This document shows positions 36,785-43,146 of a stretch of 64,000 nucleotides of DNA, piece by piece. The position numbers and the translations under genes are program-made. Numbering within the stretch: the first letter of the stretch is position 1; each line of letters opens with the position of its first letter. Source of the DNA: Mycolicibacterium madagascariense (lineage in GTDB: Bacteria > Actinomycetota > Actinomycetes > Mycobacteriales > Mycobacteriaceae); contig NZ_AP022610.1 of NCBI RefSeq assembly GCF_010729665.1, positions 3,844,001 through 3,908,000 on the forward strand. Direction: 5' to 3'. The notes under the pieces are model-generated. The model was not told the DNA's origin. It searched no databases and saw only the letters and a program-made list of their open reading frames with translations.

Positions 36785-37603
36785 GTGACCGCTCCCGCAC
36801 CGCGCCCCCCGGACGGCGACTGGCTGGGCACGCCGTTCCTGCGTTTCGAGCGCCAGGGCCCCTTCGGCGTGGTGACGCTGGACCGCCCGCAGGCGCGCAA
36901 CGCGATGTCGCCCGCGATGTACTTCGGCATCGGCTACGCGGTCAAGCACGTCGCCGCCGACGACGACCTCGCCGGGCTGCTCATCACCGGCACCGGCGAC
37001 GTGTTCGCCCCGGGAGGCGACCTCGGCGGCGCGGGCGGTGACGCCTGGATGGACTTCTCGTCGCTGTCGATGGAGGCGCTGCTCCCCTTCGACGCGCTGC
37101 GCACGTCGAGCAAGCCCGTCGTGGCGGCGGTCAACGGGTTGGCCCAGGGCGGCGGCCTGCAGATCGCGATGTGCAGCGACATGGCGGTCGTCAGCGATCG
37201 CGCAACGTTCCGGGTGCCCGAGCTGTACCGCGGCATCGCCGACACCTATTACAGCCACGTGCTCGCGCGGTCGATCGGACCCGTGCGAACCCGCGACCTG
37301 ATGTTCACCGGGCGGACGCTGACCGCTCAGGAGGCCGCCGACTGGGGCATCGTCGCCCGGGTCGTCCCCCACGAGGTGTTGATGGCCAGTGCGCTCGAGA
37401 TCCTCGCGCAGTGCTGCCGCACCGCGCCCGCCGCGCGGGCCGTCGTGAAGTCCAGCCTCGACGGCTACCTGGGTCTGTTCGACCGGATCGGGATGACGTC
37501 GAGCCTCGGCGGGCCGGAGGCGATCGAGGGCTTCCTGGCGTTCAAGGAACGGCGTTCGCCGAACTGGGTCCACCCCGACCTGAGGCTCGACGGACGGCTC
37601 TAG
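36785..37603 (+). CDS. Enoyl-CoA hydratase/isomerase (crotonase) family protein
   Basis: The 272-residue protein has the crotonase fold. The oxyanion-hole loops are FAPGGDLGG and [16 protein letters not shown]. The first catalytic glutamate of hydratases (in GGGCELA) is replaced by Gln, while the second is present in VPELYRGI. Such substitutions occur in isomerases, dehalogenase- or DpgD-like members. GTG 36785 follows CGAGGAGA. It converges with the GntR gene; their stop codons interlock. Confidence 0.8.
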
Positions 37604-38406
37604 CTCGTCGGCCTGCGCACGTCGTGGGCGATCGTCATGCTGCCGCCCGCATCGGCGGCCATCGACGTCTGGTGCAGCACGACGCGACTTCGGTTGGGCG
37701 ACAAGGCCGTCGACAGCACGTGGTGCGCAGCGCCACCGGCGAAGGCCACGCGGTTGACGCGGATCAGCGGGGCGCCGATGGTGGTGGCGAGTAGGGATGC
37801 CGTTCGGGGACCGGCGATCTCGGCGGTCATCTCGTGGTCGACGCGGTCCAGGTGCACGCCGGCATCGGCCAGCAGCCGGTAGAGCGGGGCGTGCGCCAGC
37901 GCGGACTCGGTGACCGCGTCGGCGAGTTCGGCGGGCAACCAGGCCTCGGTGATCATCAGTGGCTCGCCGGTGCGCCGTTCGCGTCGCACCCGCAGCACGT
38001 ACAGCGCGACGTCGCGACCGTCCCACCGCGCGCCGACCGTCACCGGCAGCGGTCGGACGCCGAACTCGACGACGTCGACCTCGGTCTCGAACTGGACCTG
38101 CCGCAGCTCGTCGAGATACGTGCCACCCGCGACCGTCCGGCCGGCCGGCGGACGTTCGGTGACGAACGAGCCGACGCCGTGGCGCCGTTCGATCAGCCCG
38201 GCCTCGGCGAGATCGGCCAGCGCGCGCCGGACCGTGATGCGCGAGACGCCGAACTGTTCGCAGAGGGACTGCTCGGTCGGCAGCGCGTCGCCGGGGCCGA
38301 GCGCGCCGCGGCCGATCTCGTCGTGCAGGACGAGGTAGAGCTGGCGGTGCAGGGGCACGCCGGCGTCCGCGCTCACCAGCGCGGCGCCGTCGCGAGGATC
38401 CTCCAC
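37600..38406 (-). CDS. GntR/HutC family transcriptional regulator
   Basis: The 268-residue protein has an N-terminal GntR winged helix (LPTEQSLCEQFGVSRITVRRAL) and a C-terminal UTRA ligand domain with DELRQVQFETEVDV and LMITEAWLPAEL. GTG 38406, preceded by GGGAGG, places the start 80 bp from the divergent MmgE/PrpD gene; an upstream in-frame start would run through the operator. It most likely represses the MmgE/PrpD-to-LeuD operon through the palindrome at 38452-38473, with a pathway acid as inducer. Confidence 0.85.
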   Translation of the reverse strand: MEDPRDGAALVSADAGVPLHRQLYLVLHDEIGRGALGPGDALPTEQSLCEQFGVSRITVRRALADLAEAGLIERRHGVGSFVTERPPAGRTVAGGTYLDELRQVQFETEVDVVEFGVRPLPVTVGARWDGRDVALYVLRVRRERRTGEPLMITEAWLPAELADAVTESALAHAPLYRLLADAGVHLDRVDHEMTAEIAGPRTASLLATTIGAPLIRVNRVAFAGGAAHHVLSTALSPNRSRVVLHQTSMAADAGGSMTIAHDVRRPTS

Positions 38407-38451
38407 GTCGACGAGCCTCCCACAGCGGAGCCTTGCGCTCGACGGGATGGT

Positions 38452-38473
38452 GTTGTTATATACATATGACAAC
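38452..38473. promoter_or_regulatory. GntR/HutC operator: imperfect 22-bp palindrome
   Basis: GTTGTTATATACATATGACAAC is symmetrical at 18 of 22 positions, and its AT-rich centre stands out in this GC-rich region. HutC-subfamily proteins bind GT-N-TA-TA-N-AC-type dyads. It sits 14 bp before the MmgE/PrpD ATG, covering the likely -10 region, which fits repression by the divergently encoded GntR protein. Confidence 0.65.
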
Positions 38474-38486
38474 TACGGAGGTGACG

Positions 38487-39908
38487 ATGTCGACCGAAGC
38501 CCCGACCGATCCGCACGGCCCGACGGGCCTTCTCGCGCAGTGGGTGTCCGACCTCGTCACCGCCGACGTCCCGCAAATGGTCCTCGACCGCGCCGCCCAC
38601 CTGCTGCTCGACGGCATCGGATGCGTGCTGATCGGCGCGGGCCTGCCGTGGTCGCGCACGGCGACAGAGGCGGTGCTCGCCATGGAGGGCGACGGGGACA
38701 CGGTCGTGATCGGCACCGGCCGCACCACCGCCGCCCCCGCGGCCGCCGTCCTGAACGGAACCTTCATCCAGGGTTTCGAACTCGACGACTTCCACCCGCT
38801 GGCGCCGTTGCACAGCTGCTCGCTCCTCATCCCCGCACTGCTGTCGACCGTCTCGGTGCGCCCGGGGGCGACCACGGGTGCGGACCTCCTGCTGGCCGCC
38901 GTCGCGGGATTCGAGGTCGGCCCGCGCGTCGGCTACACCCTGCACGGGTCCCAAATGCTGGATCGCGGTTGGCATTCGGGGTCGGTGTTCGGCACGCACA
39001 GCGCCGCCATGGCGGCCGGCAAGCTGCGCGGCCTGACGCCGGCCCAGCTGGAGGATGCACTCGGTCTCGCGGGCACGCAGTCGGCGGGCCTGATGGCCGC
39101 GCAGTTCGAGGCGATGAGCAAGCGGATGCACCACGGCCTGGCCTCGCGCAACGGCTTCTACGCCGCCGGGCTGGCCGCAGCCGGATACACCGGCATCAAG
39201 CGCGTCTTCGAGCGCGACTACGGCGGCTACCTCAGCGTGTTCGGCGAAGGCCACGACCCCGACGCCGCGCTGCTCACCGGTCAGCTCGGTGAGCGATGGG
39301 AGACCTCGACCATCATGGTGAAGTCCTACGCTGCGATGGGCGGCCTGCACGGTGCCATCGACGGCGCGCGTCGGCTGCGCGGAATGCTTGTCCCCCAAGC
39401 CATCTCGCACGTCGACATCACCGTCGGCGAAACCGTCTACAAGCACGGCTGGTGGCGGCCGCAGCGACCGCTCACCCCGATCGGCGCCCAGATGAACATC
39501 GGCTACGTCACCGCGGCCGCGCTCCTCGACGGCAACGTCCTCCCCGAGCAGTTCACGCCGCAGCGGCTCGACGCCGACGACGTGTGGCGCCTCGTCGACG
39601 CCACCGACGTGCACCTCGACGGGGCCCTGGCCACCGCGCCGGTCACCGAGCGCTTCCGCACCGACCTCGTCGTGACCATGGCCGACGGGACCGTGCACCA
39701 CGAGCGCGTCGACCAACCCCATGGCGCCCCAGGCGATCCCGTCACCAACGACGACATCGTCGCCAAGTTCCACGCCCTCGCCGACCGCGTCACCACCAGG
39801 AGTCGCGCCGCGGCGATCGAGTCGGCCGTCCTCGGGCTGGCCGACCTCGACGACGTCGCCTCACTGATCGACCTGCTCGCGCCAGCCGTCGCGGGCGCTT
39901 TGGACTGA
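38487..39908 (+). CDS. MmgE/PrpD family dehydratase-like protein
   Basis: The 473-residue protein is a full-length MmgE/PrpD member, with the N-terminal helical domain (LDGIGCVLIGAGLPW), the FELDDFHP motif region, and KSYAAMGGLHGAIDGA. The family includes 2-methylcitrate dehydratase, cis-aconitate decarboxylase and epimerases. ATG 38487 follows GGAGGTGA at ideal spacing. It is the first gene of an operon with an isocitrate-lyase-type enzyme and LeuCD-like subunits, so it probably dehydrates (or epimerises) the entering acid. No methylcitrate synthase is present. Confidence 0.85.
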   Translation: MSTEAPTDPHGPTGLLAQWVSDLVTADVPQMVLDRAAHLLLDGIGCVLIGAGLPWSRTATEAVLAMEGDGDTVVIGTGRTTAAPAAAVLNGTFIQGFELDDFHPLAPLHSCSLLIPALLSTVSVRPGATTGADLLLAAVAGFEVGPRVGYTLHGSQMLDRGWHSGSVFGTHSAAMAAGKLRGLTPAQLEDALGLAGTQSAGLMAAQFEAMSKRMHHGLASRNGFYAAGLAAAGYTGIKRVFERDYGGYLSVFGEGHDPDAALLTGQLGERWETSTIMVKSYAAMGGLHGAIDGARRLRGMLVPQAISHVDITVGETVYKHGWWRPQRPLTPIGAQMNIGYVTAAALLDGNVLPEQFTPQRLDADDVWRLVDATDVHLDGALATAPVTERFRTDLVVTMADGTVHHERVDQPHGAPGDPVTNDDIVAKFHALADRVTTRSRAAAIESAVLGLADLDDVASLIDLLAPAVAGALD

Positions 39909-39921
39909 CGGGAGAATCGAC

Positions 39922-40791
39922 GTGCCCACCACACCGCAGCGACGTGCGCTGCGCACCCTGCTCGACTCGGGCGAACTCATCGTCGCCCCCGGCGTCTACG
40001 ACGGCATCTCCGCTCACCTGACCAAGCGCACCGGTCACGTCGCGGCCTACCTGACCGGAGCCGGTGTCGCGGCGTCGGGTTTCGGGCTGCCCGACATCGG
40101 ACTGGTGACCGGCAGCGAGATGGCCGAGCGCGCCCGGGTACTGGCCGACGCGCTCGGCGAGGTCCCCCTGATCGCGGACGCCGACACCGGCTACGGTGCG
40201 CCGATCAACGTGGTGCGCACCGTCCGCCAGTACGAGGCGGCGGGGGTGGCCGCAATTCAGTTGGAGGATCAGGCCTTTCCGAAGCGCTGCGGACACCTGC
40301 CCGACAAGCAGGTCGTCGACGCCGACGTCTTCGAGCAGACCCTGGCCGCCGCGCTGGACGCCAGGTCCGATGCCGGCCTGCTGGTGGTGGCCAGGACCGA
40401 CGCCCGCGCGTCGCACGGACTCGACGCCGCCATCGAGCGGGCCCACCGCTACGCCGCCGCCGGTGCCGACGTCATCTTCGTCGAGGCGCCGCAGGGTGTC
40501 GACGAGATCGAGCGCATCGCCCGCGACGTCGAGGCCCCGCTGCTGATCAACCTGGTGCAGGGCGGTCTGACCCCCATCGAGTCGGCGCGGCGGCTGCAGG
40601 AATTGGGGTACGCCATCGCCATTCACCCCAGCGACCCGCTGGGACGCGCGACGTTCGCGATGCTCGAGGGCCTCTGCGCGCTCAACGGCACCGACGTCGC
40701 CGACTTCCTGCCCACCTCGCCCGCCGAGTTCTTCGACCTCGTCGGCATGGCCGAGTGGTCCGCACTCGACACCAAACTCGCCACGACCTAG
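39922..40791 (+). CDS. Isocitrate lyase/PEP mutase superfamily lyase (PrpB/dimethylmalate-lyase type)
   Basis: The 289-residue protein has the short TIM-barrel form of the superfamily: PGVYDGIS, the metal-binding DADTGYG and the catalytic-loop motif KRCGH, which carries the lyase cysteine. The loop is intact, so C-C bond cleavage of a 2-hydroxy di- or tricarboxylate is expected, as in methylisocitrate lyase or 2,3-dimethylmalate lyase. It follows MmgE/PrpD by 13 bp and precedes the LeuC-like gene by 9 bp. Confidence 0.87.
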   Translation: MPTTPQRRALRTLLDSGELIVAPGVYDGISAHLTKRTGHVAAYLTGAGVAASGFGLPDIGLVTGSEMAERARVLADALGEVPLIADADTGYGAPINVVRTVRQYEAAGVAAIQLEDQAFPKRCGHLPDKQVVDADVFEQTLAAALDARSDAGLLVVARTDARASHGLDAAIERAHRYAAAGADVIFVEAPQGVDEIERIARDVEAPLLINLVQGGLTPIESARRLQELGYAIAIHPSDPLGRATFAMLEGLCALNGTDVADFLPTSPAEFFDLVGMAEWSALDTKLATT

Positions 40792-40800
40792 GGACCAGCC

Positions 40801-42047
40801 ATGGGCATGACCATCGTCGAGAAGATCTTCGCGCGCAAGGCCGGTCTGGAGTCGGTCGCACCCGGTGACACCGTCGTCGTCGACGTCGACATGACGGTGC
40901 TGATCGATCTGCAGTTCGCGACGATGTGGCTGCAGCCCTTGAGAATTCACGACGCCGACAAGCTGGCGATCGTGATGGACCACGCCGTGCCCGCCCCCAC
41001 GATCAGGGACGCGGCGGGCGGACCACGCGCCCGCCAATTCGCCGCCGAGTTCGGCATCGAACGCTTCTACGACGTGGGACGCCACGGGATCTGCCACCAG
41101 GTCATCGCCGAGAACGGCCTCGCCCGGCCGGGAGAAGTGTTGGCGTGCACCGACTCCCACACCTGCGCAGGCGGGGCGTTCAACACCGCGGCCCGCGGAC
41201 TCGGCCCCGCCGAGGTGTACTCCATCATGTGCACCGGCAGCACCTGGTTCCAGGTATCCCCCACGATCCGCTACGAACTGGTGGGCATCAAGCCCGACGG
41301 CATCAGCGGCAAGGACGTCTTCCTGCACGTCGCCGACGCCTACGGCGACACGGCCAACCTCAACCTCGAATACGGCGGCCCCGGGTTGGCCAGCATCCCC
41401 ATGCACGACCGCCGCACCATCGCCACCCAGGGCGCCGAGGTCTCGGCGGACTTCAGCATCTTCGAGCCCGACGACGTCCTCGACGCCCATCTCGCCGCGC
41501 GCGGTGTCACGGGATACGCGAGCGCGGCCCCCGACGCCGACGCCCGGTACCGCGACGTCCGGCGGGTCGATCTCGACGCGCTGGAGTCCTACGTCGCCAA
41601 GCCGGGCACCGTCAGCCACAACGGGTCCCCGTCTCCCGACTCGGCAGGCAGAAGATCGACCAGGCCTTCATCGGATCGTGTGCCAACGGCCAGCTCGAAG
41701 ACCTCGAGATCGCGGCAAAGGTGTTGCGCGGCAACGTCGTGGCACCAGGGGTGCGGCTGCTGGTGACCCCGGCGTCGCAGGCCGTCTACCGCGAGGCCAT
41801 GCGGCTCGGATACCTGCAGGACATCGCCGACGCGGGGGGCGTGGTCACCAATTCGACGTGCGGCGCCTGCTTCGGCTACCACATGGGCGTGCTCGGCCCC
41901 GGCGAGGTGTGCATCACGTCGAGCACGCGGAACTTCACCGGGCGGATGGGGAGCACCGAGGCCGAGATCTTCATGGCCTCCCCCGCCACGGTGGCCGCGT
42001 CCGCGGTCGCCGGATACATCACCGAGGCGAGGAGCGTGACCGCGTGA
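40801..42047 (+). pseudogene. LeuC/aconitase-type hydratase large subunit, broken by a one-base frameshift
   Basis: The first 274 codons (frame of 40801) give an aconitase-family large subunit with [12 protein letters not shown]; the frame then runs out of homology and stops at 41766. The correct continuation, [19 protein letters not shown], is found in another frame from 41625 and runs to TGA 42047, with all three 4Fe-4S cysteines (GSC and STCGAC). A single missing base in the GGG at 41623-41625 explains the break. All other features are healthy and the LeuD-like gene is intact and coupled, so either the mutation is very recent or it is a sequence error. If functional, with the LeuD-like subunit it would isomerise or hydrate an alkylated dicarboxylate. 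Confidence 0.85.
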
Positions 42048-42604
42048 GTCTCAGCGTCAGCGGCAGGGCGTGGGTGTTCGGCGACGGCCTCAACACCGAC
42101 GACATGTACCCCGCGTTCGCGATGAAGATGGATCCGCCGGAGGCGGCGCGCCACGTCTTCTACGAGGTCCGCCCCGGTTGGACCGACGAGGTGTCCCCCG
42201 GGGACGTCGTGGTGGCGGGCCGCAACTTCGGCGTCGGCTCGTCACGGCCCGTCGCGGCGCTGTTCGTCGAACTGGGCGTCGCGGGCCTCATCGCCGAGGA
42301 GTTCAACTCCCTGTTCTTCCGCAATGCGGTCAACGCCGGCCTGCCCGCCCTGACGCTGCCCCGCGCCACGTCGATCTTCACCGACGGGGACACCGCGACG
42401 TTCGACCTGTCCGACGGGACCTGGCGCAACGAGACGACCGGGGCGTCGGGCGAGGTGCCCACCCTGCCCGACCTCATCCTCGACATCGTCGCCTCCGGTG
42501 GCGTGATGCCGCGGCTCGCCGCCCAGGGCTACCTGCCCGCCGAACTCGCCGACACCCTGCGGTCCAGTGCGGTGGCCATGCGCGGCGCCGGGAGCGGAGC
42601 GTGA
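42044..42604 (+). CDS. LeuD/aconitase-type hydratase small subunit
   Basis: The 186-residue protein has the swivelling-domain motifs [28 protein letters not shown] and [14 protein letters not shown]. It is the small-subunit partner of the LeuC-like protein, and its GTG overlaps that gene's stop (GTGA). The set resembles LeuCD but also dimethylmaleate hydratase DmdAB, which also pairs with a lyase of the PEP-mutase type. No leucine genes are nearby. Confidence 0.87.
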
Positions 42605-43146
42605 CCGGCATCGGCGGTCTGCTGAAGGGCATTCGCTCCTCCGGGGCTCGAAGCCCCTTGGCCAGAACGGAATTCGAGGCACCCGGGACCATCGTCGTCA
42701 CCAGCCCGGCGTTCGAGGACGGCGCACCGATCCCGCGCAGGCATGCCGGTAGGGGCGTCGGAGACGACGTGTCCCCCGAATTGTCATGGGAGGGCGTGCC
42801 GCCGAGCGCCGCCGCGCTGGTCGTACTCCTCGACGACGTCGACGTGCCGCTGCCACGCCCGCTGTGGCACAGCGCCGCCGTGCTCGATCCCGGTCTGAGT
42901 GGTCTCGCCGAGGGCGGATTCACCACGGGGACGCCGGGCGTCCGCATCGTCCCGACCATGCTCGGCCGGCACGGCTACAGCGGCCCCCGGCCGATCCCCG
43001 GACACGGCGCCCATCACTACCGCTTCCACGTGCTGGCCCTCGACCGACCGGTCCCGTCGGCGGCCACCTCGGTGAAGGCCGTGCTCGCGGCCGCCGCCGG
43101 TCACGTGCTGGCCCGCGGCACCCTCACGGGCACCTACGAACGCTGA
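42601..43146 (+). CDS. YbhB/YbcL (PEBP) family protein
   Basis: The 181-residue protein has the phosphatidylethanolamine-binding-protein fold with [13 protein letters not shown], the LDDVDVP pocket strand, LWHSAAVL and [11 protein letters not shown]. Bacterial members have no agreed function. GTG 42601 overlaps the LeuD-like stop, so it is the last gene of the operon. A long hairpin follows 3 bp after its stop. Confidence 0.82.

Follow-up and report, generated by a model that had tools for sequence, protein, structure and literature searches.

The nearest described counterparts of the locus examined here are the methylcitrate cycle (PrpBCD, AcnD/PrpF) and the dimethylmaleate hydratase DmdAB with 2,3-dimethylmalate lyase (Dml), enzymes of nicotinate fermentation in Eubacterium barkeri. 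The locus lies in a 64,000-nucleotide stretch of Mycolicibacterium madagascariense (contig NZ_AP022610.1, positions 3,844,001 to 3,908,000), referred to as the window. It consists of an operon for an MmgE/PrpD-family protein (MmgE), a carbon-carbon lyase, a LeuC-like and a LeuD-like hydratase subunit (LeuCD), and a protein of the PEBP family, with a divergent gene for a GntR/UTRA regulator. On balance, its gene families suggest that the operon is a self-contained unit for the catabolism of a small, branched dicarboxylic acid, in which an alkylmaleate-type hydration would probably be followed by cleavage of the alkylmalate. The first-pass annotation of this DNA had proposed that a dialkylmalate or an alkylcitrate is converted to pyruvate and a shorter acid; its core idea fits the results below, and its alkylcitrate version is the less favored.

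The operon is conserved and extends beyond the mycobacteria. A protein scan with the LeuD-like subunit gave 70 named loci, a few of which are fragments. They are mainly from Mycobacterium and its relatives, and the others are from Nocardia, Amycolatopsis, Streptomyces, Streptacidiphilus, Kutzneria, Catenulispora, Dactylosporangium, Solirubrobacterales, and a betaproteobacterial metagenome-assembled genome. In tblastn searches with the window proteins (E ≤ 1e-8) of 71 loci (L035 and the 70 named), some of which are cut by contig ends and a few of which gave weak or fragmentary matches, MmgE was matched in 50, the lyase in 61, the N-terminal part of LeuC in 65, LeuD in 69, PEBP in 42, and GntR in 39. 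A comparison of operon composition across genomes, which had been suggested as a check in the first-pass annotation, thus finds the operon conserved in mycobacteria and other actinobacteria. The distribution is patchy within the family, where the LeuD-like gene is present in 10 of 301 genomes (E ≤ 1e-20). Close lyases were found in 5 of 396 genomes across the phylum (E ≤ 1e-75), i.e., the window genome, two congeners, and two others whose lyases (L165 and L166) are 51 to 53% identical and score under the prpB cut-off. No description of the operon was found in a full-text search of the published literature, judged by titles.

The regulator gene and the operon are separated by a 22-bp dyad, GTTGTTATATACATATGACAAC, which is self-complementary at 18 of 22 positions. 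A dyad-like site (at least 17 of 22 positions matching) is present in 38 of 40 GntR-operon intergenic stretches; this set includes L029 and L031, which repeat L045 and L046, and skips L083, which has no intergenic stretch. As for the two exceptions, the site of L037 is cut by the excerpt, and none was found in the excerpt of L039. The 5.94-Mb window genome has no other site within 3 mismatches of GTTGTNATATNNATATNACAAC, and the reversed dyad, used as a control, gave no site in it; the dyad is far beyond chance. In all 22 operon-bearing mycobacterial genomes examined, the form GTTGTTATANNNNTATAACAAC, with up to 2 mismatches allowed, occurs exactly once, and all 22 sites map to the operon when their coordinates are compared by hand. 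An operator-based regulon search for a remote transporter accordingly gave no second target in the window genome or in any of the 22 genomes. Because the operator is unique in each genome, the repressor probably controls only its own gene and the operon. The regulator had been called a HutC-type repressor; it is of the UTRA type, yet it scores 97.7 bits against a HutC equivalog cut-off of 220, and the HutC identity is not supported. The three loci without a GntR/UTRA gene that were inspected carry other adjacent regulators, of the AsnC (L082), IclR (L077), and FCD-GntR (L099) types.

The lyase differs from PrpB in its signature residues. The PrpB signature LAN[L/I/M]TEFG was found in 15 of 15 controls over the curated cut-off and was missing in four lyases below it. 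In the operon lyases, position 212 is Val in 60 of 61 sequences (the remaining one has a gap), and position 236 is Pro in 61 of 61. Across 24 lyases, comprising that of the window, 12 from operon loci, and 11 from plasmid records of related clusters, residue 212 is Val in 21, Ala in 3, and Thr in none. The reference proteins have Thr (Escherichia coli PrpB, 3eoo, and 4iqd), Val (the dimethylmalate lyase 3fa3 and the oxaloacetate hydrolase 3lye), or Ile (the petal death protein 1zlp) at this position. The Ser or Thr found there in isocitrate lyase (ICL) and PrpB presumably touches the far carboxylate of succinate, and its loss points to products without a far carboxylate. Position 236 is Ser in both 3lye and 1zlp; this Ser is a marker of oxaloacetate acetylhydrolase (OAH), an identity not supported for the operon lyases, all of which have Pro. 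In a FastTree phylogeny, the PrpB sequences fall in a separate clade, and four lyases of proteobacterial modules group with 2,3-dimethylmalate lyase (DML) and OAH (support, 0.942). Among solved structures, DML is also the closest to the Paraburkholderia lyase (1e-61). A single-sequence fold prediction of the lyase was poor (mean pLDDT of 40.8) and was not used.

The hydratase is also distinct from its namesake in leucine biosynthesis. The two window LeuC pieces score 73.0 and 89.7 bits against a leuC cut-off of 560.25, and LeuD scores 21.7 bits against a leuD cut-off of 116.25, so that both subunits fail as leucine-pathway equivalogs; a second LeuC-sized gene is located elsewhere in the window genome. 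On plasmids of Paraburkholderia sp. 22B1P (L130) and Caballeronia sp. SBC2 (L136), the lyase (46 to 47% identity), MmgE (54 to 55%), and GntR (36 to 39%) are accompanied by LeuCD of the bacterial isopropylmalate (IPM) dehydratase type, which passes both the leuC and leuD cut-offs (scored in Paraburkholderia, to which the Caballeronia LeuCD is 65 to 69% identical). Both clusters also carry an MFS transporter, and a PEBP gene (37%) is present in the Caballeronia cluster and was not found in that of Paraburkholderia. Lyase and LeuCD genes are found beside TTT transporter genes in Skermanella and Variovorax, and beside ABC transporters in Methylobacterium, Arthrobacter, and Rhodococcus USK10. In Streptantibioticus and Variovorax (variants L131 and L143), they are accompanied by PrpF-family genes. 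The PrpF family gave no match (query, the PrpF-family protein of the window genome; E ≤ 1e-3) in 78 loci, at least 4 of which repeat a named locus, while others are short or hold a partial operon. In a Halomarina record, the lyase and LeuDC genes adjoin on opposite strands, and in Roseomonas and Comamonadaceae records a related lyase lies beside TctC genes without LeuCD. Because the LeuCD subfamily and the entry enzymes vary among the clusters, the lyase and a LeuCD-type hydratase appear to be the pathway core, with MmgE as the possible entry enzyme here and perhaps PrpF-type isomerases elsewhere. We favor an alkylmalate over an alkylcitrate as the likely intermediate, both from the signature residues of the lyase and from the replacement of the hydratase by LeuCD of the IPM-dehydratase type. 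A separate Haloferax cluster (L133, 3477 to 7480) combines a CoA transferase, an HMG-CoA-lyase-type protein, and LeuCD, and is a possible CoA-dependent alternative to the lyase.

In the pathway that we propose, the GntR/UTRA repressor would occupy the single palindromic operator until it is released by an acid inducer. MmgE would convert the entering acid, by dehydration or isomerization, to an unsaturated diacid of the alkylmaleate type, and the LeuC/LeuD-type hydratase, judging from its family and the gene swap, would add water to the double bond. From its signature residues, the lyase is expected to cleave the alkylmalate so formed, giving a 2-oxo acid (most likely pyruvate) together with a short monocarboxylic acid, e.g., propionate; the PEBP protein may have an accessory role. 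Since the window genome has three methylmalonyl-CoA-mutase-family matches, propionate could enter metabolism via methylmalonyl-CoA mutase and be used without the methylcitrate cycle.

Several points weigh against this proposal. The hydratase is frame-broken in this window. MmgE is absent from six mycobacterial loci in which GntR, lyase, LeuC, and LeuD are all retained (L069, L071, L072, L076, L079, and L096), and its step may therefore be dispensable or different. The presumed role of position 212 in touching the distal carboxylate is taken from ICL structures. The window lyase group is separate from both PrpB and DML/OAH in the FastTree phylogeny, among solved structures the window lyase matches the petal death protein 1zlp best and DML third, and of the NCBIfam models prpB fits it best, albeit under the cut-off. 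In addition, DML-type lyases may also cleave methylisocitrate, because two reports describe a "dimethylmalate lyase," so called by name alone, in Rhodospirillum rubrum and Variovorax WS11 together with methylcitrate genes (PMC8471276, PMC9804861).

The break in the LeuC-like gene leaves the N-terminal part in the open reading frame (ORF) at 40801 to 41766 and puts the C-terminal part into the frame that closes at 42047, with the frame change located between about 41600 and 41630. The aconitase-family hydratase of two subunits named in the first-pass annotation is therefore right as to the families, but the large subunit is split over two frames rather than being a single intact gene. Either the route is inactive in this assembly or the break is a sequencing or assembly error. 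The 65 relatives with a LeuC match read from the N to the C terminus in one frame without a stop in 61 cases, change frame in 3 (L058, L074, and L089), and end at the contig end in 1 (L093). In Mycobacterium lepraemurium (L089), several genes of the operon are frame-broken. The locus may be a relic, with the pathway being lost and the window operon decaying without a current function. We consider this possible but doubtful: the frame breaks in the window and in three relatives, the further breaks in M. lepraemurium, the six loci without MmgE, and the patchy distribution would all suit such a decay, whereas the operator and the other genes in the window appear intact, the LeuC frame is uninterrupted in 61 of the 65 relatives, and a single break in an assembly may be an error.

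Another route, which we regard as unlikely, would begin with an imported alkylcitrate or homocitrate that MmgE dehydrates; LeuCD would then form an alkylisocitrate, which the lyase would cleave to succinate or a homologue and a 2-oxo acid. This reaction order is the same as that of PrpD, aconitase, and PrpB, and residue 28 of the LeuD loop, which is Lys in 62 and Arg in 4 of 66 sequences, could hold the extra carboxylate. The best NCBIfam model of the lyase is likewise prpB (TIGR02317), but the score of 253.2 bits is under the cut-off of 354.4, so that the lyase fails the PrpB equivalog and also lacks its TEFG signature. MmgE fails the actinobacterial PrpD equivalog (NF042438) with 26.6 bits against a cut-off of 950, and no further NCBIfam model matched it at E ≤ 0.01. 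The swap of the hydratase for an IPM-dehydratase type is a further point against a tricarboxylic substrate, and we return to the alkylmalate route as the better candidate.

The MmgE of the operon clusters with those of Paraburkholderia and Caballeronia (support, 0.974). Its residues H116, K219, and K286 (MmgE numbers are counted from the ATG at 38466) are kept in 48 of 48 sequences, and E105 is found in 48, F109 in 47, and M291 in 41 of the 48. The cis-aconitate decarboxylase 7br9 has Asp, Thr, and His at the last three positions; these correspond to D93, T97, and H277 of human IRG1, which we take to be important to the decarboxylase active site. A decarboxylase in this position would make or degrade itaconate-type acids, with LeuCD and the lyase acting on citraconate and citramalate. 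Cis-aconitate decarboxylases and the Bacillus MmgE are indeed among the nearest solved relatives, and the retained His and two Lys residues are in line with such a function; these relatives are only distantly similar, however, and Glu, Phe, and Met replace the active-site Asp, Thr, and His, so that decarboxylation appears less likely than dehydration or isomerization and a decarboxylase-based operon is rather improbable. The same residues do not support an identity of MmgE as a cis-aconitate decarboxylase. A second MmgE subfamily is found in L073, L084, and Streptantibioticus, and two different MmgE/PrpD genes stand in tandem upstream of the lyase in L073 (3954 to 6868) and L084 (3971 to 6861). 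Elsewhere in the window genome (L009, C1:1900000-1916000), another MmgE/PrpD gene occurs with a gene of the PrpF/oxalomesaconate-tautomerase type and an alpha/beta hydrolase gene near a UbiD-family decarboxylase gene, possibly a second, undescribed acid pathway.

For the METHYLCITRATE cycle, no citrate synthase match was found in the 78 loci with the two citrate synthases of the window genome and E. coli PrpC as queries; the same queries matched in 11 of 15 PrpB control loci. The first-pass annotation had noted that no methylcitrate synthase accompanies the operon and had named prpC in conserved operons as the finding that would speak for an ordinary cycle; prpC was looked for and was not matched in any of the 78, some of which are short or hold a partial operon. 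The two citrate synthase genes of the window genome are separated from each other by about 3 kb and from the operon by nearly 1 Mb, and no PrpB match was found in that genome at E ≤ 1e-90. The methylcitrate cycle was rejected on the lack of a citrate synthase match in the 78 loci, the lack of a PrpB match in the genome, the failed prpB and PrpD cut-offs, and the lack of TEFG in the lyase. Although PrpD-, aconitase-, and PrpB-like folds occur together here, an ordinary cycle with a distant synthase is most improbable in view of the loci without a citrate synthase match, the remoteness of the two citrate synthase genes, the absence of a PrpB match, and the low lyase and MmgE scores.

The sixth protein varies among the loci. 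After LeuD, the 70 named loci have PEBP only in 41, an MBL-fold gene only in 9 (L070, L078, L082, L084, L085, L086, L087, L095, and L099), both in 1, and neither in 18, 7 of which have too little sequence; 1 locus has no LeuD match. The MBL-fold gene follows the LeuD match directly or within about 270 bases on the same strand, and in the single locus with both, it is a weak match on the opposite strand. The HxHxDH motif was observed in the MBL-fold proteins of L085 and L099, the two sequences inspected. In PEBP, D79, D81, H90, H138, and Y140, which presumably line the ligand pocket, show at least 95% conservation across 44 aligned proteins. Dialkylmaleic acids readily close to anhydrides. This chemistry and the mutual exclusion of PEBP and MBL after LeuD raise the speculative idea, to which we give little credence, that the PEBP protein is an enzyme and that the two are interchangeable ring-opening hydrolases, acting on an anhydride or lactone, in one pathway; the exclusivity is confounded by taxonomy, PEBP being mainly from mycobacteria and Nocardia. 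Were it true, the large PEBP family of bacteria would gain a catalytic function.

The features of the locus are listed in Table 1. Pfam and NCBIfam profiles agree with the gene families assigned in the first-pass annotation, and the compact plus-strand spacing that it described (measured here as gaps of 13, 9, -4, and -4 bp from MmgE through lyase, LeuC-like, and LeuD-like genes to PEBP), the KRCGH motif of the lyase, the divergent regulator gene, and the 22-bp dyad between regulator and operon were all found, the dyad being conserved and genome-unique. The true start of MmgE is more likely the ATG at 38487 than that at 38466, because GGAGG precedes the former, the latter falls within the dyad, and the database entry for the same protein has 473 amino acids. 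An enoyl-CoA hydratase/isomerase gene (36785 to 37603) is convergent with the GntR gene, and ORFs similar to it in size and strand adjoin GntR in L037 and L051.

Table 1. Features of the operon and its regulator in the window (positions are those of the window)
Feature	Coordinates	Strand	Evidence
GntR/UTRA putative repressor	37600..38406	-	PF00392, 72.9 bits; PF07702, 55 bits; divergent from operon
Predicted operator, 22-bp dyad	38452..38473	.	Commonest form in relatives, GTTGTTATATGTATATAACAAC
Ribosome-binding site GGAGG for MmgE gene	38477..38481	+	Read from sequence
MmgE/PrpD-family protein, uncharacterized subfamily	38487..39908	+	PF03972, 201 bits; PF19305, 121 bits
ICL/PEP-mutase-superfamily carbon-carbon lyase	39922..40791	+	PF13714, 145.8 bits; KRCGH motif, NLV-GG signature
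LeuC-like hydratase large subunit, frame broken	40801..42047	+	N part and C part match adjoining stretches of the same profiles
LeuD/DmdB-family small subunit	42044..42604	+	TIGR02087, 130 bits (cut-off, 108.95); GSSRPVA and MYP-x-F-AMK loop
PEBP-family protein	42601..43146	+	PF01161, 77.5 bits; conserved putative ligand-pocket residues

The operon is thus conserved and self-regulated in many actinobacteria and has parallel versions in proteobacteria, under database names taken from the methylcitrate and leucine pathways. If the proposal is true, these genes form a separate route for branched dicarboxylic acids with a lyase and LeuCD core, in which the hydratase type, the entry enzyme, and the sixth protein are exchangeable, and the annotations would be corrected. 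The unique operator eases the search for the inducer, and the locus offers a testable lead to the function of a bacterial PEBP protein.

Compared with known systems, the operon shares with the methylcitrate cycle the same three fold families, but no PrpC was found with it, its lyase and MmgE score under the curated cut-offs, and the PrpB signature is missing from the lyase. The leucine-pathway LeuCD has the same fold as the hydratase and replaces the window type in the Paraburkholderia and Caballeronia operons, whereas the window LeuC pieces and LeuD are far under the leuC and leuD cut-offs. The petal death protein 1zlp, the top solved match, is like the window lyase hydrophobic at position 212, and the fungal oxaloacetate hydrolase 3lye has the same Val; both differ from the operon lyases in having Ser in place of Pro at position 236. 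With DmdAB and Dml of E. barkeri, compared here at the level of protein families, the operon shares a LeuD/DmdB-family subunit and an ICL/PEPM lyase with V212 and P236 as in 3fa3, and a PrpF-family gene occurs in two variant clusters; it differs in having MmgE in place of the methylitaconate isomerase, together with GntR control and a PEBP protein.

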